Part shown: positions 18,326-28,986 of the stretch, one piece after another
How positions within the stretch are numbered: the stretch's first letter is position 1
Layout of the letters: each line of letters begins with the position of its first letter
Source of the DNA: Taibaiella koreensis
GTDB lineage: Bacteria; Bacteroidota; Bacteroidia; Chitinophagales; Chitinophagaceae
DNA: 64,000 nucleotides
Assembly: GCF_003545715.1 (NCBI RefSeq)
Contig: NZ_QVNU01000003.1
Span: 372,001-436,000 of the forward strand
Direction: 5' to 3'
Made by a program: the position numbers and the translations under genes
Notes under the pieces: generated by a model
Told to the model about the DNA's origin: nothing
Database searches by the model: none
What the model saw: the letters and a program-made list of their open reading frames with translations, nothing else

Positions 18326-19525
18326 CTACTGTGCTGTATCGGGCTGATCCGGTGGCAATATCTGTTCCAGCAGCGAAGGAGCATTGTATACGAAGGCGCT
18401 GATATTGCCGTTGGCGTCCTTTTTCGCTTCATAATAAGTAGGGGTATTGGTCACGCAGTCGTACAGGATGATCTTACCATCTCTGTTCATAAAGCGGTAG
18501 GCGCCGTTCAGGGGCTTTTCTGTTTTGTCCTCCATAGTGACCATGATCTTTTCAGGCGCCGTGTAATCATTGTTCTTAATGTCGCCTGCAAAGCGGTAAT
18601 AAAAGCCATCGGAAAGGCCGGCGACGATCACATACTGGACATTTTCTTTGATGGGCTGCTTGATAATGGCATAGGTAGCATCCGCCGCTGAGCGGGGAAT
18701 GCCGGAGGTGTGCAGGGCGATATATTTACTTTCAAGATCGCCGTCCTGGCTCATGCTGCCGATAATGATCTTTCGGTAGATCGCTTTCAGATCGGCATTC
18801 TCTGCACGGTTGTTTTTTACCTCTTTAAAAGCGGTCTGGTAAAGGTCAAACTCCTTCACATTCTCAACTACATAATTGGTGTTTACATAGCCGATATCTT
18901 TTTTTCCCTTAAACAGGTAGCTCAAAAAACCGTTATCCTTCAGCAGCACTTTCCTGAAAGGATACTGGTTGCTGGTGTTGTCGATACTACGATAGTATAT
19001 CTCCTTGTCCACAGCTTTCAGCTTCTGGAACGAAGGAATGGGCCCCTTGACTTCGTAAAGGTCCATGCGGGCAACTGCTTCCTTGTTCTCATCCCTTACC
19101 AGCACATTATCCGTAATGGTGTAGAGGTATTGCATGCTGCTGTAGGCCAGGTATTGGTAACCCAGGTAACCCAAAAGAAGCAACAGCAGGGGAAGTACAA
19201 TAAAGGGCCATTTCTTCCTTCTTTTCGGCGCCGGCCAGGGCGTAACCGGTACATCTGCCGGTGCAGATACCGGCACCGGGATTACTTTGGGCGCAGGCTG
19301 CGGCCTGGGCGTGAATAAAGTCTCTTTAAAAAAAGCATTGATCTCATTGCGCTTATCCTCATCGGTAAGCCCCCAGGAATGGAACAATCCGCTGAGCTGA
19401 TCGGCGATCTCCTCGTTGCTCAATGCTGTCCAGCCTTCCTTTAGCCGGGCAGGGGGATCCTGTCCTTTTCTTTTGCGGTACAGGAAAGTGATGAAATCGG
19501 CTATGTTACTTTTGTTTATCGACAT
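18326..19525 (-). CDS. Single-pass membrane protein, last gene of the SEDS-PBP operon
   Basis: A 399-residue protein with no recognised family. Residues 1-70 form a soluble helical part (LSNEEIADQLSGLFHSWGLT) expected in the cytosol. A proline-rich linker covers 72-100. A basic stop (KRRKKW) and one membrane helix at about 107-127 follow, then roughly 270 residues predicted outside. The outer part has repeated beta-type stretches, including YTITDNVLVRDENKEAVARM, which recalls an SH3-like module. Its start overlaps the preceding gene by 20 bases, so translation is probably coupled. The topology (cytosolic head, long periplasmic tail) would let it bridge the ATPase side and the wall side of the proposed system. 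Confidence 0.72.
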   Translation of the reverse strand: MSINKSNIADFITFLYRKRKGQDPPARLKEGWTALSNEEIADQLSGLFHSWGLTDEDKRNEINAFFKETLFTPRPQPAPKVIPVPVSAPADVPVTPWPAPKRRKKWPFIVLPLLLLLLGYLGYQYLAYSSMQYLYTITDNVLVRDENKEAVARMDLYEVKGPIPSFQKLKAVDKEIYYRSIDNTSNQYPFRKVLLKDNGFLSYLFKGKKDIGYVNTNYVVENVKEFDLYQTAFKEVKNNRAENADLKAIYRKIIIGSMSQDGDLESKYIALHTSGIPRSAADATYAIIKQPIKENVQYVIVAGLSDGFYYRFAGDIKNNDYTAPEKIMVTMEDKTEKPLNGAYRFMNRDGKIILYDCVTNTPTYYEAKKDANGNISAFVYNAPSLLEQILPPDQPDTAQ

Positions 19526-19979
19526 GATAGGTTCCTGTGGTTTTATCCATAAGTCTGATCAATACATCATTGGGTATGGTCACCCCGTTTTGTTCGTTGA
19601 TTTTGAAACGGGCCGTCAGCAAAGGGCTTCCCTGCTGATATTGCAGCTCAAATCCATGCTGGCTCAGCCTGAACCGCAGCAACGCTTCATTGGCATTGAA
19701 AAAATCGCGGCCCTGCTCTCCTGAGTTTTTTAGCTCAAGTGTCAACACCCCATTCTCCTGCCTGATGTCGGCATCGCTGCCGTAAGCCCTGGTGACCAAT
19801 GCCGCAAAGGTATCGGTTTTCATAGTGTTGTAGCTGTTGCTGCTAAAGGCTGCAGGTTGCTCTACGGGCTGTTCCATTGCTGTATTTCGGAGCAGAACGG
19901 TGGTAAGACCGGCGCCTGCCGCTACAACCAGGGCCAGCGCCGTAAAAATGATCTGCCATTTACTAATGCTGTGCTGCAT
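19506..19979 (-). CDS. Small membrane-anchored protein in the SEDS-PBP operon
   Basis: The 157-residue protein has one N-terminal membrane helix at about 8-30 (WQIIFTALALVVAAGAGLTT) without a convincing cleavage site, so it is probably an anchor. The remaining 125 residues, outside the cytosol, have a compact alpha/beta look (TFAALVTRAYGSDADIRQEN, then LRFRLSQHGFELQYQQGSPL). It ends inside the start of the 399-residue gene and begins 28 bases after the giant SEDS-PBP gene. No family recognised; a partner of the fused synthase is inferred only from position. Confidence 0.72.
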   Translation of the reverse strand: MQHSISKWQIIFTALALVVAAGAGLTTVLLRNTAMEQPVEQPAAFSSNSYNTMKTDTFAALVTRAYGSDADIRQENGVLTLELKNSGEQGRDFFNANEALLRFRLSQHGFELQYQQGSPLLTARFKINEQNGVTIPNDVLIRLMDKTTGTYHVDKQK

Positions 19980-20007: not shown

Positions 20008-23000
20008 CTAACGGAAATAATGCTGGAAGGAACGGGAGGCCATCACTTCGTTAATAATATTGTTGAGCAGCGTCCAGTCAAAATCCTTGTTATTGTCTAC
20101 AGTAAAATACAAGGTGTATACCTTCGTTCCCGCTTGTCCTATGCTTGCGGCCTGCTGCATGTCCTGGTTGGTAATGGCTACCACCAGGCGCCGGGAATTG
20201 CCTGCGCCCGATCCTTCTTCATTGATGGTACCGGTCTTGGCATAAAAATAGAAGCCGGGATGTGCGCCGCGCAATCCGCCCAGCGCATGTCCTGTACCGC
20301 TGCCACCATAGATCACGTCGTTCATGCCTTTGAAAATATACGCCGACAGGAACTGGTTGAAGCTGCCCGCTTCGCGCCAGCTGGCATCCGTTTGCCAGGG
20401 CATCCCATGTTGTTTGCCGGGTAGTACCTTCAGCTCCAGATTACGGTTCTGTGTAAACAGGGCGGTGTACATTTCCAGCATTTTGAGTGGCGATACCTGG
20501 TAAGGGTAGCCGCCCAGCGTCGTCGTTTTCAGGCCCAGGTTAAAGTTCTGGTAGGGTTCAGTAAAAGCACGCTGCGCCTGCAGAAAGCTTGATTGTTCGG
20601 GGAAGCTCCATAAGAAATAGCTGCCTTTATTCTTCGATAATGCGGTATATAACGGACTGTCTACTATGTTGACGCGGGTATAGGAAGCTGGTATGTTGCC
20701 ATCCCCATCATAGGTTTGTGTGCGCAGGCGCGTGTTCGTTTCCAGCCCGTCAGCCAGCAGCGAATGCTCGTTGCCGAAGAAGCTTTTCTTCTTTTGTTCG
20801 CGCTCATTGGTAAGCGGCCAGGCGCCCTTCCTGTGATTGTAGTTGGGAAGATAATAGACATTGCCGTTGAAGGTAAATACGGGATACGTATTATCGGGAC
20901 CGGCAGTACTGCTCAATACATGCTTCAGGCTCATTACATTGTCGCGCACGAAAGCGCTGCGCGGGTAAGAGCCGAGGAAGATCATGGCCGATTGGTAGAA
21001 GTTGCTGGATACTTCAATGTACTTATCCAGGCTCAGCTCGGCACGGTAATGATCGTCGTTTTCCCAGGGCTTCAGCAGTTTGAAGCCGCCATAATTGACA
21101 TATTCTGTCTGGGCAGGCGCCATCAGGTGCAGCTGCCCCCAGCCGGCATTGGCCTGCGATGCTATCGCTGCGGCGATCAGCGGCTTTACCGAAGAGCCTG
21201 GTCCAAGCCGCATGGCCAGCAGGTTGCTGTTGCCCCACTGGTCACGCTCGTTGCGGATATTGCTGAAGAAGAAATGTTTTTGCTGCAACCTGGCGATAGA
21301 CACCACATCATTGGGGTCGAGTCGTATCCTGTTGCGCACAAAATCATTCATCAGCCTGATGTTGCCGTCAGCATCGGCAGCGGCGACGCTAAACCGGAAC
21401 CGGCGATTGGACCGGGTCGTTCCTTCATAAGCCTGGTCGATCATTTCCTGCACCCTGTTGTACAGGTTATAATCGAGGCTGATCGCGATATTGTCCTGCA
21501 GCACGCTATCGGCCTTATAAGCATTGCGAATGGCATTGGCAAAATGATACATCCAGAAGTTGTGCTCCTTCTGGGGGTAAAGGATCTTATAGCTGCCATT
21601 GATCCATTTGTTGACCGCAAAGTAATTGCCCGAATTGCTATAGGCCATTACCAGCTTGCTTGCCGGCATGTTGAGCGTAGCAATGTCTTCGTTATTGAAG
21701 CTGTTGGCAAACCTGGTCTGGTATTGCACCAGGTTGTTGCTGTTTTTTTTATAGAGCAGCAGGCCCGCTTGCTCCTGACCAGCCTGTTTGATATCAAGAA
21801 TGCCTACGGGCTGTCGGGCGCCCGTAAACCAGGCGGCAGGCATTATGGCCAGCTGCAGGCGCGCCGAAGGGTCTTTTTTGAAATAAGGGAGCGCTACGGT
21901 ACTATTGTTGTTATTATAGCTCAGGCTTACCATAGGCGTTGGCAGGCTCAGGTTTTCGGTTACCGATCCGTTCCATACTTTCCGGTTCTCGACAGGCGGC
22001 AGCTCCAGGTACAAGTGCTCATTGTACAGGGCGCTGTACTGGTCGTTGTCGTAGAGCATGTAGAGCGGGTTGTCGATACGGAAAGCATTAGCCGGTTTGC
22101 TGATCAGCTGTTTCAGGATGCTGCGCGTATAGTTGTCGGTTACCGAGTCGTTCAGCAGGTCTTTGAAGCGACGGTCTTCGCCCAGTATCTTGATCAGACC
22201 GGAGTAGCTGTATCGTTGCCGTTTTCCTGCGAGACTATCCTGTATCTCGTAGAGCACCGCATTGAGATCTTTGTTGATATGGTTCTTTGTTTTCTCCACA
22301 ATGATCGAAAAATTATTATTGCTCAGCTCATTGCCTTTAATAGTAGTGAGCGCAAAGCCGGCGATCAATATGGTAAAGAAGGTATAACGGGCCAGGTTGC
22401 TGCGCAGGTTCAGCTGGTACGAGCGGTACGAAGCCGGCTGCTGCGTGAGTGTAATGCCAAACAGCACCAGGGGCAACACCACGCTGAGCTTGCTCGTCAG
22501 GCTCAGGAAAGGAAAGTCCTGTCCGAAGAAAACAAAGCGGTTGGTGGCTGTGAGCCATACAAACAGGCTGAGCGTGAAAAACAGCAACAACGGCAGCACA
22601 CCGGCATAAGAGCGGAAGTTGAGCCTGTAATAAGGCTCCTCGGTCAGCCGGTACGAGATCAGGTAGAGAATGAGAGGCAACAGCGTGAGCAGCAAAACCA
22701 GGTACATGGTGAAGTTGCCCAGCTCCCCGATCACAAAGCGTGCAATCACCACATCCCTGGTCTGGGTATTGTAGTCCACGCCTACCTTAGAATAGGGACG
22801 CAGGTTGATGACCGCATCGTTGTGATAGGGCTTGTTTACATAAGAGTTGATGAACCATTGGTTTTCGGCAGTCTCGATAATCTTTTGCGTCTGGAACGAA
22901 GAGTAGGGGTTCTGGGCCAGTAACTCGCTTATCGGCTGATGGATAATGGACGCGCGGTACTGCACATGCTTGATCGCGCTGGTAGCTTTGGCTTCGAGGA

Positions 23001-25500
23001 AAGCCCTGCTGCCAGGGATCAGCAGCAACAACAGGTAGCAGCCCAGCACGGCGCCCAGTATGCCTGTAATCTTTTTCTGCTTTTTATAAAAGAAAAATAG
23101 CACAGCGACGGGTATCAGCAACAACATTCCAATGACGATGAGCTTGTAGGTGAGCAGGTAGTAGAACAGTGATTTGAACGAAAGCACCACCAGGTACACC
23201 ACCAGCGCCGCTATACCATAAATCCAATAGTTATTCGGATTCAGCAGCATCTTGCGTATTGTCGTATGCTGCGAGTTGAATGGCTTCTTCAGGAAGTTAA
23301 GGAAGATATTTTTGAGCAGGATAAATAGGGTAAACAGGATCGCAAAGCCACGGTCGGTGAGCGCAAAAAAGAGTATGGTAATGAGTGTGAGCAGGAAGGC
23401 CGGGTTGTAGATCAGGTATTGTATATAGGCCTTCAGGCGGATATAGCCCATCGACTCTCCGGGCCGCACCCACTCCTGGTCGAATTGGTAATAGCGGTTG
23501 CTCAGCATTGCAAAGTAGCAATAACCGATCACCGGCAATATAATAGAGCTGACGCGGGTCAGTATCTCGATGTGCAGCAGCTTGCCATTGAGGAAGAACA
23601 ATACCGTACAAGCGCCGATGAACAGGGCATAGGCCTTATTAATACGTGGCGCTGTTTTCAGGTTCCATTTTTCAGCCGGGGAAAAGAAAACCGGCTTTCC
23701 ATTGGATACCAGGTAACGGTAGCCGCTAAGCATGATCAGGAAGAGGAAAAGCCATACCAGGGTAAACGGTATGGGCAGGCGAATGCTGCCCCAGCGATAA
23801 TCGAAATTGAGGATCGTGTTTTCCAGCTCATACTTGGAAATGTTTTCCAAGGGAGGAAAAGTGGCCAGCCGCCAATACAGGATAAACCGAAGGATCAGCA
23901 GGGCATAGATTACCGCAAACAATATGGGTTCTATACGTACCAGGCTCTTGCCGGGAAAGAAGATGAGCACAAGCAGCATGCCTATATAGATAACGGCAGC
24001 AAACAGGACCAGCTTGCTATACCTAAAGCCGTTTTCAGAATAATCCCTTACGGCGAACAGGTAGCGAACGCCGGGTTCGGAAGATTGCAGGCTGAAGCGG
24101 TTGTTTTCAATAGCACGGTAGGCGCCGTTACGGTTGTTGTCGGCTATACCGAAGCGCATGGGTACATTGGGCCGCTGCGACAGGTAGTCCATAGTGCCGT
24201 TTACCGGGTAAGGCGTATTCAGCCCGTAGTTATGAAAATAAAAGCCCTCGCGCAGATCCGAGCTGAGAATCTCATCATTATTATTGGCAATGAACCGCAG
24301 GTTCTTGTTGCCGGCCACCTGCCGCTCTGCCGGACTGGATAGCAGGTAGGCGGGAGGGTAATCGAATAACAAGGCTACTTGATCTCCGGATTTCCCGGCA
24401 TCGTATTCCGAAGGATCGATGGTACTCAGGTAGGCTTTCTCCTGTATGTTATGAAAACCGATATAGAATTTCTTACCAAAAGGGATTTCGGTTTTGTTAT
24501 TCAATTGAGGAGTTACCTGCTGCCCGTCGGCAGAAAGGCGGTAGCCGTTGCGGATAAGGCCCTGGGAGGGGAACAACGAATAGGCATCTTCATTGCCTGC
24601 ACTATTATGTGTAAGCAGGTAGCTCTCGCCTATCTGTCGCAGCACAAATTCCAGCACGGCATAGCTTTCGTTCCGGCCTGCCGAGAAGCTGCGGCTGTTC
24701 AGGAGCAGGTTGTACAGCGACTTTCCTTCCTGCAAGGCACGTTCTGCTATCTCGATATGATCGGTATAGGGCAGCGGGACATTGATCTCCTCGGCAAGTT
24801 GCCGGTCGTTAGAGCGGATGTCGATCGCATAGACGATCCGCTTTTGCTTGCCCGGTCTCAGGAAGTCGAGCCAGCTGCCGGAGCCTTCGTTGATCTGCAC
24901 TGCGATCCGGTTAGCACCATTCTCAAGCGTAAACGTTTTACGGAATACCTGGGGGAAGATATCGTTAATGGGAGTGTATACACCGTCCTGGTCGGTCTGC
25001 AAAAAGACCGGCTGATAAAAGCCGGCAAAACTGATCTCCGCCTTGTCGTTAACCTTCCTGCTGAAGGTCATGCTACCACCATCGCCGGTAGTATCATCTG
25101 TAGGCAGGGTGAGCGAAAGCGACTGCCGGAAGGTGATGCCCGTATTGCTGATACCATGATAATCGCTGTTCAGGAACCAGGGATGACTGCCGCCGGGATT
25201 GGTCGTGCGAAGGATACATACGATACTGCTGATGAAAATGACGGTCATCAGGCCAAAGGAAAGAATGACCTTATACTTGCGGATCACCTGTGCAGCCTGT
25301 GCCTTCACGGCATCGCTAACATCGGGCATGTCCGTTTTCCGGTAGATAAGTTGCTCGATATTGATCTGTGCAAAATAATACAGCAGGCAGGCAATGATCG
25401 CTATGCTCAGGAACCAACTGATGATGCTGCCCAGAAATAGGTTGAGCAGTATGATCGCCAGCGTCGGCAACAGCAGGTATAGGATACCCTTAATTTTCAT
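20008..25500 (-). CDS. SEDS (RodA/FtsW-like)-penicillin-binding transpeptidase fusion protein
   Basis: An 1830-residue polytopic protein. Three N-terminal helices (about 5-24, 26-44, 77-97) precede a periplasmic region to about residue 490. Residues about 495-1055 contain many membrane helices. Within them, TQTRDVVIARFVIGELG resembles the SEDS loop with the catalytic Asp (D916) and the E-L-G after it (E926), and FGQDFPFLSLTSKLSVVLPL resembles the final GxxLPxxS SEDS helix. Residues about 1065-1830 hold a penicillin-binding transpeptidase domain with all three active-site motifs: S1436-S-V-K1439, S1498-S-N1500 and K1755-T-G-T. Known SEDS proteins polymerise glycan and pair with a separate class B PBP; here both would be one chain. 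The SEDS part is divergent, so polymerase activity is inference. Neighbours are an Hsp70/actin-like ATPase and single-pass proteins. Confidence 0.8.
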   Translation of the reverse strand: MKIKGILYLLLPTLAIILLNLFLGSIISWFLSIAIIACLLYYFAQINIEQLIYRKTDMPDVSDAVKAQAAQVIRKYKVILSFGLMTVIFISSIVCILRTTNPGGSHPWFLNSDYHGISNTGITFRQSLSLTLPTDDTTGDGGSMTFSRKVNDKAEISFAGFYQPVFLQTDQDGVYTPINDIFPQVFRKTFTLENGANRIAVQINEGSGSWLDFLRPGKQKRIVYAIDIRSNDRQLAEEINVPLPYTDHIEIAERALQEGKSLYNLLLNSRSFSAGRNESYAVLEFVLRQIGESYLLTHNSAGNEDAYSLFPSQGLIRNGYRLSADGQQVTPQLNNKTEIPFGKKFYIGFHNIQEKAYLSTIDPSEYDAGKSGDQVALLFDYPPAYLLSSPAERQVAGNKNLRFIANNNDEILSSDLREGFYFHNYGLNTPYPVNGTMDYLSQRPNVPMRFGIADNNRNGAYRAIENNRFSLQSSEPGVRYLFAVRDYSENGFRYSKLVLFAAVIYIGMLLVLIFFPGKSLVRIEPILFAVIYALLILRFILYWRLATFPPLENISKYELENTILNFDYRWGSIRLPIPFTLVWLFLFLIMLSGYRYLVSNGKPVFFSPAEKWNLKTAPRINKAYALFIGACTVLFFLNGKLLHIEILTRVSSIILPVIGYCYFAMLSNRYYQFDQEWVRPGESMGYIRLKAYIQYLIYNPAFLLTLITILFFALTDRGFAILFTLFILLKNIFLNFLKKPFNSQHTTIRKMLLNPNNYWIYGIAALVVYLVVLSFKSLFYYLLTYKLIVIGMLLLIPVAVLFFFYKKQKKITGILGAVLGCYLLLLLIPGSRAFLEAKATSAIKHVQYRASIIHQPISELLAQNPYSSFQTQKIIETAENQWFINSYVNKPYHNDAVINLRPYSKVGVDYNTQTRDVVIARFVIGELGNFTMYLVLLLTLLPLILYLISYRLTEEPYYRLNFRSYAGVLPLLLFFTLSLFVWLTATNRFVFFGQDFPFLSLTSKLSVVLPLVLFGITLTQQPASYRSYQLNLRSNLARYTFFTILIAGFALTTIKGNELSNNNFSIIVEKTKNHINKDLNAVLYEIQDSLAGKRQRYSYSGLIKILGEDRRFKDLLNDSVTDNYTRSILKQLISKPANAFRIDNPLYMLYDNDQYSALYNEHLYLELPPVENRKVWNGSVTENLSLPTPMVSLSYNNNNSTVALPYFKKDPSARLQLAIMPAAWFTGARQPVGILDIKQAGQEQAGLLLYKKNSNNLVQYQTRFANSFNNEDIATLNMPASKLVMAYSNSGNYFAVNKWINGSYKILYPQKEHNFWMYHFANAIRNAYKADSVLQDNIAISLDYNLYNRVQEMIDQAYEGTTRSNRRFRFSVAAADADGNIRLMNDFVRNRIRLDPNDVVSIARLQQKHFFFSNIRNERDQWGNSNLLAMRLGPGSSVKPLIAAAIASQANAGWGQLHLMAPAQTEYVNYGGFKLLKPWENDDHYRAELSLDKYIEVSSNFYQSAMIFLGSYPRSAFVRDNVMSLKHVLSSTAGPDNTYPVFTFNGNVYYLPNYNHRKGAWPLTNEREQKKKSFFGNEHSLLADGLETNTRLRTQTYDGDGNIPASYTRVNIVDSPLYTALSKNKGSYFLWSFPEQSSFLQAQRAFTEPYQNFNLGLKTTTLGGYPYQVSPLKMLEMYTALFTQNRNLELKVLPGKQHGMPWQTDASWREAGSFNQFLSAYIFKGMNDVIYGGSGTGHALGGLRGAHPGFYFYAKTGTINEEGSGAGNSRRLVVAITNQDMQQAASIGQAGTKVYTLYFTVDNNKDFDWTLLNNIINEVMASRSFQHYFR

Positions 25501-25549: not shown

Positions 25550-26350
25550 TCAGATATTACGAATGCGGTAGCCGGAGATGATCGACTCGTCCAGACCGCC
25601 GGAGCCTTGCTCCCTTAGCAGGTCCAGCAGCGGCTTGATGTGTTTGGGTATCTTGTCCACAGGCGTATCCTTGTTGATCTCAGTTGCCAGGCCCTCTCCC
25701 GGGCTTTTCCGGCTCATGAGGTATTGGATATTGGCCTCGTCGTAAGGCTGCTTTTTGGCAATCTTGTAGCGCGTAAGGCTGCTGTAGTGACTCATGATCT
25801 TCATCAGGTTTTCCTCGATCTCCCTGTGTGCGCCTCTTTCCATCGCATCGTGCATGGGCGCTACCAGCTTGCGGAAAGCTTCGCCGTAGTATTCGTTGTC
25901 AAAATTCCTGTCGCTGGCCAGCTGTTGCTGCAGCTGCTCTTTTTCCTTGGTGAGGTTGTCCAGCTGGCGTTTCAGCTTTTGCTCCTGTGGCGACGGCCTG
26001 CCTTCTTCCCGGATGGGTTGTGTTTCCGGCTGACTTTCCGGGCGGGGGGTATTTGCTTTCGCTTTTCCCGATGACAGGCGCATTACTACCGCGGTAATGA
26101 CGGCGCCGGCGACAAGGCCCAGCACTACGGGCAGCCAGGGGAAGCGCTGGCTATCGTTATTGCCGGTATCGTCCGCAGTGTCGCTTATCCCTCCGGCCTC
26201 GCCATCTTCAGCCAGCGAAGTGTCCTGTTGTGTTGCAATATTACTATCAGCAACACGATTCGTGTCCTTGGCGCGATTGGTGTCCGTCTGGGCCTGTGCC
26301 CAACCCGTTGTCAGCCCGGTCAGCAGAAACAAAAAGAAAAGACGTTTCAT
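25550..26350 (-). CDS. Single-pass protein with cytosolic coiled coil, SEDS-PBP operon
   Basis: The 266-residue protein starts with a signal-peptide-like segment (MKRLFFLFLLTGLTTGWAQA), then an acidic Asp/Thr/Asn-rich stretch outside the cytosol. One membrane helix at about 72-92 (WLPVVLGLVAGAVITAVVMR) is followed by a basic turn. A Pro/Glu linker and a coiled coil at about 118-147 (LKRQLDNLTKEKEQLQQQLA) come next. The C-terminal 120 residues form a soluble cytosolic domain. It sits 14 bases after the ATPase gene and 49 before the fusion gene. By position and topology it could link the cytosolic ATPase to the membrane synthase, a role loosely like that of MreC/RodZ; this is inference. Confidence 0.75.
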   Translation of the reverse strand: MKRLFFLFLLTGLTTGWAQAQTDTNRAKDTNRVADSNIATQQDTSLAEDGEAGGISDTADDTGNNDSQRFPWLPVVLGLVAGAVITAVVMRLSSGKAKANTPRPESQPETQPIREEGRPSPQEQKLKRQLDNLTKEKEQLQQQLASDRNFDNEYYGEAFRKLVAPMHDAMERGAHREIEENLMKIMSHYSSLTRYKIAKKQPYDEANIQYLMSRKSPGEGLATEINKDTPVDKIPKHIKPLLDLLREQGSGGLDESIISGYRIRNI

Positions 26351-26364
26351 GTCAGCAGTTTTGT

Positions 26365-28986
26365 TTAGAAATATAAAGGGTTCGACGGGGGATTTTCAGT
26401 ATTGTTATCGTTGTCGCTTACCGGAGGTGGGGTAGGAGCCGGGGTTGCCGGCACCACCGGGGCCGGAGCAATATCATCCCGCTCCAGGCTGTTCAGGTAT
26501 TTTTCATCGATATAATTGGGGAACAGTGAAGGAATGATCAGGCTCATATCGCTGCTGCCGGTATCTTCTATCGCCCTCATCGGCGCAATGCAATCGACGA
26601 TGCCATTGTATTTTCTCCTGATGAAATAGCCCTTGTGGGTAAACTCGATATCCGCCTCGTAAGCGACGCCCGGCCGCTTCTGGAAAATATCGTTGCCGCT
26701 CACACGGTAGGTCTTGGAGCCGATCAGGAACTGGCTCGTCTGCAGCTTGTCGAAATTAAGGTTATGGTCGAACGCCAGCACTTTTTCCTCCGCCTGCTCA
26801 AAGCTGTTCAGATCGTTAAAGATGCGGGCAAACAGTGATTTACGAGGCGCTGCCGGCTTCTTGGGCTGCTGCGCCTCCGGCTCCTGGTCGCCGAACACCA
26901 GCTGAATAGGATAGCCCGTCATTTCGGCGTTCACTCTTATGGAATTGTTGAACACGCCTTTGATACAGATGTCCTTAAGCTCATTGCTGTTGAGCAGGTT
27001 GATCCGCGACTCGCTTACCTGCAGCTGCTGCACCAGGCTTTGCTTCATCTTATCCACCAGCGGCTTGAACATGAAGCTGCGGCCTGTAAGAATGATGCCG
27101 GCACAGTTGAAATCTTTCTTGTTATCCTTGATCAGGCGTATATACCGCACAGCCGTATCGGCAATAAAATCGCAGGTCTCGTTGATATAGCTGTAGAAGT
27201 CGGATACATTCTCCAACCCGCTCAGCAGGCTGATCAGCGTATTGATGCCGTCGCCGTATTCGATAAGGTCGCGGAAGCCGATATCCCCGCTCCGGGCATG
27301 GTCCCAGGTATCGCGCACCTGATCGCTGATATGGCTGCTTTTGTAATTGAATTTTAAACGCTCCAGCTCGTTGTAAAAGTTGTTCTTCCGCTCCAGGTCA
27401 TCACTGGTCAGAATGCGTATCACCTTATCCTTGATATACCTGATGCTGCTTTGATGGGTCTGCGCCGTCTGCCGGATATAGTGCAGCAGCGTCTCAAAAA
27501 TAGCATAGGTGATCATATTGCCGGCCCCGGAAAAGCCATTGCGGTACACGGGATTCAGGTCAAAAATATTTTCCTTGCCGGTACGGATAACGGAAAAGTC
27601 AGTAGTGCCTTTGCCCGAATCGATAATGATATAGTCGCGGTCTTTCTCGATCGAGATATTGTTCTTGTTGATGTACCCGATAAAAGAAGCGTCGCTTTCC
27701 GATATTGTCGACACTTCCCAGGCCAGGATGCGGTCTTTATATTCATGCTCGCTCAGCTCCTGGAAAATATTGTGCAGCTGGTGTTGGATATAGTTGATGT
27801 CGTTGGTATCGTAAATATTGGGCACCAGCAGCATCAGGCGAATGAAGCGGGTAGCTTTATCGTAGCGTATGAACTCCTTTTTGAGGAAGGAGGCGATCAT
27901 TACCTTTAGAATGGTATTGTATACCTTCTGCTTGATCTCGCTTAGCTTGATCGGGATGCCGTAGCCCTGCTTCTCTATCTCGAAAGTCACACCGCTCAGC
28001 AGGTCTTCATGTTTGTGGATTATTTTGAGATTGGGCAGCTGGTGGAACTTCTGCGCCGTAAGCGTATTGAAGCCGTCCTTGGTATTGACCAGCATCTTCA
28101 GGTTATCGGCAATGTTTTTAATGAACACTTCCCGGTCGATATCCTCATAGTCGCCCGTCAGCTGTTCCTTCAGGTAGAAGAGCGATTTGTAGAAATTAGT
28201 ATTCTTCTCTTCCTGGTAAAAGTCAACCACCTCGTTCTGCGATACCCATCCGTTGCTTTTATGAAAGGAAACGATGTTGCGGAAAAGGTTCTCGATCTCA
28301 GGACGCCTTTCCTGCAGGTTAAAATCGTTGGTATAGCGCTTCACCGCCATCTGGCTCGATTCGGAGCCGAAGTCGAGCGCGATGCCCAGGAACTGCGAAG
28401 GATGCGCGAGGTAGAGGTCCACGGCATTGGAATATTGCTCCTCACCCACTTCCAGCACCACGCGTAGCGTCAACTTATTGCGGTCAAACAAAGCCTGGTC
28501 GATCTCCCTGGTCTGGCGGCTTTTCACATGCACCACATTCTGCTTCGATTCAAAGCTGAGCGCCAGGTGACTATTGGCCTGGCCCAGTTGCTGCACTTGT
28601 TCCCGTACCGGCAGTATAGCTTCCGGCTTCGGCTTTTTATCCCTGCTCACATAATCTTCGAGATCCTCGTAGCTCAGTCTTTCTTTAGCGGCCGGAGCCT
28701 GCTCTGCTGCGGGTTTTGGAGCCGCTTTTTGTTCAAACAGCTTCAGCGTTATCACATCGTCATTGAGCGTGCATTCCGCTTCGATACGGCTCATCGGGAT
28801 ATCGTGACTACCTTCCACAAAAGTGCGGATCACGCTGCTCCTGAGAATGCTGAAAAGATTGAAGCTGGTGAGGCTGGGCACTTCTATAATATAGCTGTTG
28901 TTCTTTGGTTGAAAATGCTGCCCGGTCAGCTCAAGCAGCATTTCCCTGCGATCGTTTATGATTACGGGGAGAGAATAAAAATTCAT
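26365..28986 (-). CDS. Hsp70/actin-fold (ASKHA) ATPase, first gene of the SEDS-PBP operon
   Basis: An 873-residue soluble protein. Residues 1-195 form an N-terminal region without a known match. The ATPase core shows the three ASKHA nucleotide motifs. Phosphate 1 is at about 200-212 (LGIALDFGSESSQMAVK), phosphate 2 at about 452-466 (DYIIIDSGKGTTDFSVIR) and the adenosine motif at about 629-645 (AGIILTGRSFMFKPLV). The C-terminal 170 residues include a short beta-rich segment and a Pro-rich tail. The order of motifs and the long insertions are nearer to divergent Hsp70-like proteins than to MreB. No substrate-binding domain of DnaK type is seen. It leads a tight minus-strand operon with membrane partners. 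Confidence 0.8.
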   Translation of the reverse strand: MNFYSLPVIINDRREMLLELTGQHFQPKNNSYIIEVPSLTSFNLFSILRSSVIRTFVEGSHDIPMSRIEAECTLNDDVITLKLFEQKAAPKPAAEQAPAAKERLSYEDLEDYVSRDKKPKPEAILPVREQVQQLGQANSHLALSFESKQNVVHVKSRQTREIDQALFDRNKLTLRVVLEVGEEQYSNAVDLYLAHPSQFLGIALDFGSESSQMAVKRYTNDFNLQERRPEIENLFRNIVSFHKSNGWVSQNEVVDFYQEEKNTNFYKSLFYLKEQLTGDYEDIDREVFIKNIADNLKMLVNTKDGFNTLTAQKFHQLPNLKIIHKHEDLLSGVTFEIEKQGYGIPIKLSEIKQKVYNTILKVMIASFLKKEFIRYDKATRFIRLMLLVPNIYDTNDINYIQHQLHNIFQELSEHEYKDRILAWEVSTISESDASFIGYINKNNISIEKDRDYIIIDSGKGTTDFSVIRTGKENIFDLNPVYRNGFSGAGNMITYAIFETLLHYIRQTAQTHQSSIRYIKDKVIRILTSDDLERKNNFYNELERLKFNYKSSHISDQVRDTWDHARSGDIGFRDLIEYGDGINTLISLLSGLENVSDFYSYINETCDFIADTAVRYIRLIKDNKKDFNCAGIILTGRSFMFKPLVDKMKQSLVQQLQVSESRINLLNSNELKDICIKGVFNNSIRVNAEMTGYPIQLVFGDQEPEAQQPKKPAAPRKSLFARIFNDLNSFEQAEEKVLAFDHNLNFDKLQTSQFLIGSKTYRVSGNDIFQKRPGVAYEADIEFTHKGYFIRRKYNGIVDCIAPMRAIEDTGSSDMSLIIPSLFPNYIDEKYLNSLERDDIAPAPVVPATPAPTPPPVSDNDNNTENPPSNPLYF

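Follow-up and report, generated by a model that had tools for sequence, protein, structure and literature searches.

Can one polypeptide hold both the polymerase and the transpeptidase of a cell wall synthase and, if so, what would such a chain do in a bacterium that also carries the standard enzymes? A locus in Taibaiella koreensis raises this question. The window analysed here is a stretch of 64,000 nucleotides that forms part of a 5.94 Mb genome, and a sequence-only reading of it had claimed that a single protein of 1830 residues joins a SEDS-like glycan polymerase to a penicillin-binding protein (PBP) transpeptidase. Complexes of SEDS and PBP enzymes are central targets of antibiotics, and their coupling to actin-like proteins is under active study. 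Elsewhere in the same genome we found canonical FtsW and RodA, several PBPs, and MreB-, FtsA- and DnaK-type proteins. Because canonical RodA, FtsW, MreB and FtsA are thus retained, the cassette described below is an addition to the standard machinery and not a replacement for it.

The open reading frame and its homologues

The 1830-residue open reading frame spans positions 20008-25500, begins with ATG and lies on the minus strand, which the earlier reading had not specified; all features of the window located by position below are encoded on this strand. The motifs on which that reading was built occur where it had placed them. D916 and E926 are both contained in TQTRDVVIARFVIGELG, the motif proposed as the last helix of the SEDS part (FGQDFPFLSLTSKLSVVLPL) covers residues 992-1011, and the three transpeptidase motifs are present as S1436xxK1439 (within GPGSSVKP), S1498xN1500 and K1755TGT. 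Residues D916, E926, S1436, K1439, S1498, N1500, K1755, T1756 and G1757 are invariant across 14 aligned full-length homologues, a degree of conservation well above chance. Hydropathy analysis also agrees with the proposal of a large periplasmic N-terminal domain, as it places an extracytoplasmic region, flanked by hydrophobic segments, at residues ~98-490 (24031-25209).

The nearest named homologue, from Taibaiella helva, is 88% identical across the whole protein, while that of T. lutea is 66% identical and is missing ~100 residues of the stretch that leads from the PBP helix to the transpeptidase domain (fusion residues ~1182-1287; loci L023/L027). Homologues are carried by 15 of 149 Chitinophagaceae genomes (10 of 102 genera), and two more families of the same order encode versions of 1668-1853 aa. 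In a phylum sample of 395 genomes, matches were confined to the Chitinophagaceae, with a screen so loose that distant copies may escape it. This patchy distribution indicates that the fusion is dispensable in most relatives. A tblastn search for a plasmid or phage origin gave no match, and comparison of the fusion profile with PDB sequences yielded sub-threshold PBP1b fragments at the KTG motif, unrelated chains and nothing else. Within the Chitinophagaceae, the homologues are single open reading frames of 1725-1830 aa, with one exception: in genome G085 (L037:6314-11671) a 595-aa protein corresponding to the N-terminal part, and including the extracytoplasmic domain, is followed after three bases by a 1188-aa SEDS-PBP protein. 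This natural split puts the module border near residue 600.

The sequence-only reading had itself raised the possibility that the frame joins two genes through a sequencing error. We found nothing in favour of such a sequencing or assembly artefact; the G085 chain does consist of two open reading frames, but its border lies elsewhere, and full-length frames are present in independent genomes. In a comparison with T. helva, in which synonymous sites are close to saturation and the values are approximate, dN/dS was 0.063 across the whole fusion gene; the SEDS module had a value of 0.035 and the transpeptidase one of 0.060. Both halves are therefore under selection, and the gene as a whole is under strong purifying selection. 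Given this constraint, the motif conservation and the homologues, we rejected gene joining, whose probability we regard as negligible.

The two catalytic modules

The reading of the C-terminal half as a PBP transpeptidase is well founded. The domain occupies residues ~1320-1830 (20011-21543), and Pfam detects PF00905 at residues 1664-1820 with an E-value of 1.5e-6, above the curated cut-off. An hhalign comparison of residues 1036-1830 with 30 Chitinophagales PBP2/PBP3 sequences gave a probability of 96.5 and an E-value of 7.5e-10, as compared to 0.41 for the reversed control. Sequence features of a class B enzyme are present, namely a PF00905 domain with SxxK, SxN and KTG motifs and a single helix, predicted from hydropathy at residues 1037-1055 (22336-22392), ahead of the periplasmic part. 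A Pfam scan of the window protein and its homologues found no GT51 domain in the fusion. These data support the assignment of the C-terminal half as a class-B-type penicillin-binding transpeptidase.

The membrane module (residues ~600-1021; 22438-23703), for which ten helices are predicted, is much more diverged. Neither the window protein nor any of 14 homologues matched PF01098, the family of the RodA/FtsW SEDS glycosyltransferases (GT119), at E-values up to 1, and the module is likewise without an NCBIfam match. As the PF01098 cut-off is not reached, we refer to the module as RodA-like and do not file it as a member of that family. Its homology to RodA emerges from profile-profile comparison: a 20-sequence profile of residues 600-1062 aligned to 23 RodA sequences of the same order over 333 columns, almost the whole module, with an E-value of 6.9e-6, which is the best of several related SEDS-set comparisons, the FtsW-dominated and pooled sets giving weaker but in-register alignments (E-values of 0.0003 to 0.003). 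The RodA alignment scored 52.3, whereas the maximum among local column shuffles, a null that roughly preserves where hydrophobic positions fall, was 32.9 (0 of 400 shuffles as good); this null was applied to three SEDS sets, and each time the real score lay above every shuffle. A reversed RodA profile matched the module over 30 columns with an E-value of 0.036.

The alignment also brings the catalytic residues into register. Among the 18 columns strongly conserved in both the module and RodA, nine hold the same residue (G718, F726, R849, Q913, D916, E926, G993, P997 and S1000), and R849, Q913, D916 and E926 fall within the predicted extracytoplasmic catalytic loop (residues 833-929; 22714-23004). 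D916, which is invariant, aligns with the aspartate of the RodA TD motif, and R849 is nearly invariant; the RodA counterparts of D916, R849 and E926 are invariant. In RodA, the D262A mutation abolishes polymerisation (PMC6207328) and Asp262 is treated as catalytic (PMC10449877), while SEDS proteins are characterised by ten helices, an essential aspartate in a long loop and a conserved arginine (PMC10920833). By hydropathy and positive charge, the loop that holds D916 and the FGQDFPF loop are placed outside, and the linker from the end of the SEDS module to the PBP helix (residues 1022-1036; 22393-22437), which is basic, is placed inside; with helix borders that are partly set by hand, this topology fits ten helices in the SEDS module and one in the PBP part. 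An AlphaFold prediction of the module from three input sequences had a pLDDT of 40. Taken as profile-profile statistics and residue register, the evidence supports a highly diverged RodA-type SEDS glycosyltransferase, and a resemblance first put forward from a divergent pattern is thereby strengthened. The SEDS family would then reach below the detection limit of current annotation models.

A conserved cassette with an actin-superfamily ATPase

The sequence-only reading described the chain correctly but treated it in isolation, and what sets the locus apart is a constant actin-superfamily ATPase neighbour and the cassette to which both belong. A gene for this ATPase adjoins the fusion gene or sits one gene away in all 19 loci for which the contig is long enough; in genome G354 it lies on the strand opposite to the fusion. 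The window's copy (26365-28986) encodes 873 aa with no predicted helix, and its homologues are soluble proteins of ~790-900 aa. Across 14 homologues the motifs DFGSE..SQ, DxGKGTTD and TGRxFxFxP are invariant; they resemble those of the actin/Hsp70 superfamily, such that phosphate-1, phosphate-2 and adenosine motifs can all be recognised and are aligned there to MreB, DnaK and FtsA. The hhalign E-values were 2.3e-4 for FtsA, 3.6e-4 for MreB and 5.8e-4 for DnaK, with the proper motif matched in each case and reversed controls above 0.3. Pfam and NCBIfam searches gave scattered sub-threshold matches to Actin, MreB and FtsA, and the cut-offs for MreB membership (PF06723/TIGR00904) were not reached, the best E-values being 0.0012-0.03 in 2-4 of 14 ATPase members. 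An AlphaFold prediction from three input sequences had a pLDDT of 35. These motifs and modest E-values suggest a divergent actin/Hsp70-superfamily ATPase whose similarity to known members is local. Taibaiella genomes also encode a separate Hsp70-type protein of ~850 aa (L203, G000:C20:441198-442274; relative at L204:1635-4187), the C-terminal half of which lies outside the Hsp70 match. A search with the profile of the cassette ATPase did not detect this protein.

Between the fusion and ATPase genes lies the gene for a proposed adaptor (25550-26350), a 266-aa protein in which a signal peptide and a single helix are combined with a coiled coil at the C-terminal end. Downstream of the fusion, in the window's subfamily, are genes for a 157-aa protein (19506-19979), which has one N-terminal helix and is otherwise probably periplasmic, and for a 399-aa protein (18326-19525) with one helix and an SH3b-like C-terminal part (SH3_3 E-value of 0.0041, in one homologue only). 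The five genes of the window's cassette share one strand and are separated by 14-49 bases or overlap slightly, and they therefore probably form one transcript. Distances between ATPases follow those between fusions with a rho of 0.82, as expected for joint inheritance, although shared genome ancestry alone would yield much of this correlation. A role in anti-phage defence, considered because of a single weak PADLOC match to the 266-aa coiled-coil protein (E-value of 5.6e-4), was not accepted.

The cassette varies among genomes. A second subfamily (L031, L032, L033, L034 and L036) is without the 157-aa and 399-aa genes, and has an extra one-helix protein of ~275 aa that starts with MEKYLF.DGTN and is encoded upstream of the ATPase (e.g. 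L031:1879-2712). In genome G089, two zinc-ribbon membrane proteins are encoded ahead of the cassette (L030:333-2032); their C-terminal ends resemble those of extra proteins encoded downstream of the cassette in G032 and G101.

The proposed synthase, its precedents and alternative readings

We propose, with a probability of roughly 60%, that the locus encodes a single-chain peptidoglycan synthase with a dedicated actin-superfamily ATPase, a third elongasome-like machine that would run in parallel with the usual RodA and FtsW machines. In this synthase, the RodA-type SEDS part would use D916 as its catalytic residue to polymerise lipid II, the fused class-B-type transpeptidase would cross-link the new strand, and the extra extracytoplasmic N-terminal domain would be attached to the same chain. 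Its partners would be the cytoplasmic ATPase, a bitopic coiled-coil adaptor linking the cytoplasm to the periplasm, and two small membrane proteins, of which the SH3b-like 399-aa protein might bind the cell wall. The ATPase may polymerise or switch state beneath the membrane and, by touching the adaptor and the cytoplasmic loop at residues 1022-1036, place or activate the synthase. This last step draws on E. coli, in which MreB is bound both by the C-terminal tail of RodA and by the cytoplasmic N-terminus of PBP2 (PMC13327600); the fusion has the two joined in a single short loop, which predicts that this loop touches the 873-aa ATPase. What we infer for the machine is its enzymatic activity, the formation of filaments, the contact of ATPase and synthase, and a role in shape, septum or stress. 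The boldest form of the proposal, in which one polypeptide polymerises and cross-links as part of a complete third peptidoglycan machine distinct from both the Rod complex and the divisome, driven by a dedicated and undescribed actin-family filament, is tentative, and we would sooner doubt it than assert it.

The SEDS-PBP fusion as such is not new. The earlier reading had considered a natural fusion unusual, yet one is mentioned in a passage of PMC10449877 that cites the Rhodococcus RHA1 genome, and a second type came up in Bacteroidota during the collection of RodA controls. In this second type, the SEDS and transpeptidase parts are clear to Pfam and follow an N-terminal extracytoplasmic domain in one open reading frame of ~1221-1389 aa; it occurs in several families (L087:7455-11594, L088:7037-11104, L243:6668-10738, L245:5399-9412, L247:6704-10756 and L248:5808-9473), in most cases with Ser/Thr kinase, PP2C and FHA genes as neighbours, and its N-domain was matched in 12 of 385 phylum genomes. 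The neighbourhood recalls the actinobacterial pstP-rodA-pbpA-pknAB cluster. The Rhodococcus protein, known here through that citation, shares with the window fusion the joining of SEDS and PBP in one chain, as do engineered RodA-PBP2 and SpoVE-SpoVD fusions (PMC6207328, PMC10449877), which are functional but consist of standard SEDS sequences without the extra N-domain. A literature search that covered few subscription journals returned no description of the window family or of its pairing with an actin-like ATPase.

Of the known systems, the RodA-PBP2/MreB elongasome is similar in that it combines a SEDS polymerase, a class-B-type transpeptidase, an actin-family ATPase and a bitopic protein, and RodA is the closest SEDS profile. 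The cassette differs from it in having one chain instead of two, an extra N-terminal domain, a highly diverged SEDS part and a distantly related ATPase more than twice the length of MreB; no MreC, MreD or RodZ was recognised in it. The FtsW-PBP3/FtsA divisome likewise pairs SEDS and PBP enzymes with an actin-family protein, and FtsA gives the best E-value for the ATPase, but the divisome chains are separate and FtsW fits the module less well than RodA.

The ATPase leaves room for another reading, since Hsp70-like or regulatory roles fit the protein as well as a filament does. The fusion could be a SEDS-PBP synthase whose partner is a chaperone-like or regulatory member of the Hsp70/actin superfamily that senses the envelope or assembles the complex and forms no guiding filament. 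The superfamily includes the Hsp70s, the hhalign scores to DnaK, MreB and FtsA are all similar, and the protein, at 790-900 aa against ~340 for MreB, has large extra regions; on the other hand, known wall synthases are coupled to the actin-family proteins MreB and FtsA, and Pfam detects no substrate-binding Hsp70 domain, so that we judge this reading unlikely, though worth keeping in view. It is far less probable that the membrane module is another GT-C_B polymerase or ligase, of the Wzy or O-antigen-ligase type, making a different surface glycan that the PBP domain links to peptidoglycan. SEDS, Wzy and O-antigen ligases do share a clan and local similarity (PMC10920833), and Wzy matched RodA with an E-value of 1.2e-4 in the present comparison, but Wzy polymerases matched the module over 19 columns with an E-value of 0.011, as against the RodA match described above; moreover, the catalytic position holds an aspartate as in SEDS proteins, and a transpeptidase follows the module in the same chain.

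A further alternative concerns origin. One ancestral SEDS-PBP fusion may have given rise to both Bacteroidota types, the window family being an extreme derivative in which control by kinase, phosphatase and FHA proteins was swapped for the ATPase. The two types share the same order of parts in one chain (N-terminal extracytoplasmic domain, SEDS, PBP), yet the kinase-linked fusions (L087, L088, L243, L245 and L247) are shorter, have Pfam-clear SEDS parts and are flanked by kinase, PP2C and FHA genes instead of one for an actin-like ATPase, and profile comparison of the two gave E-values of 0.059 for the SEDS module and 0.11 for the N-domain, whereas the module matches RodA at 6.9e-6. Direct kinship is thus unsupported by the profiles and common descent seems to us a minority reading; with no close profile tie between them, the fusions may have arisen independently.

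If our proposal of a single-chain synthase with its own ATPase holds, it would offer a natural system with fixed 1:1 stoichiometry, in which the RodA tail and the PBP N-terminus form one loop, and would suit studies of how polymerase, cross-linker and cytoskeleton are coupled. If true, some Bacteroidota own an additional cell wall machine beyond the two textbook ones.
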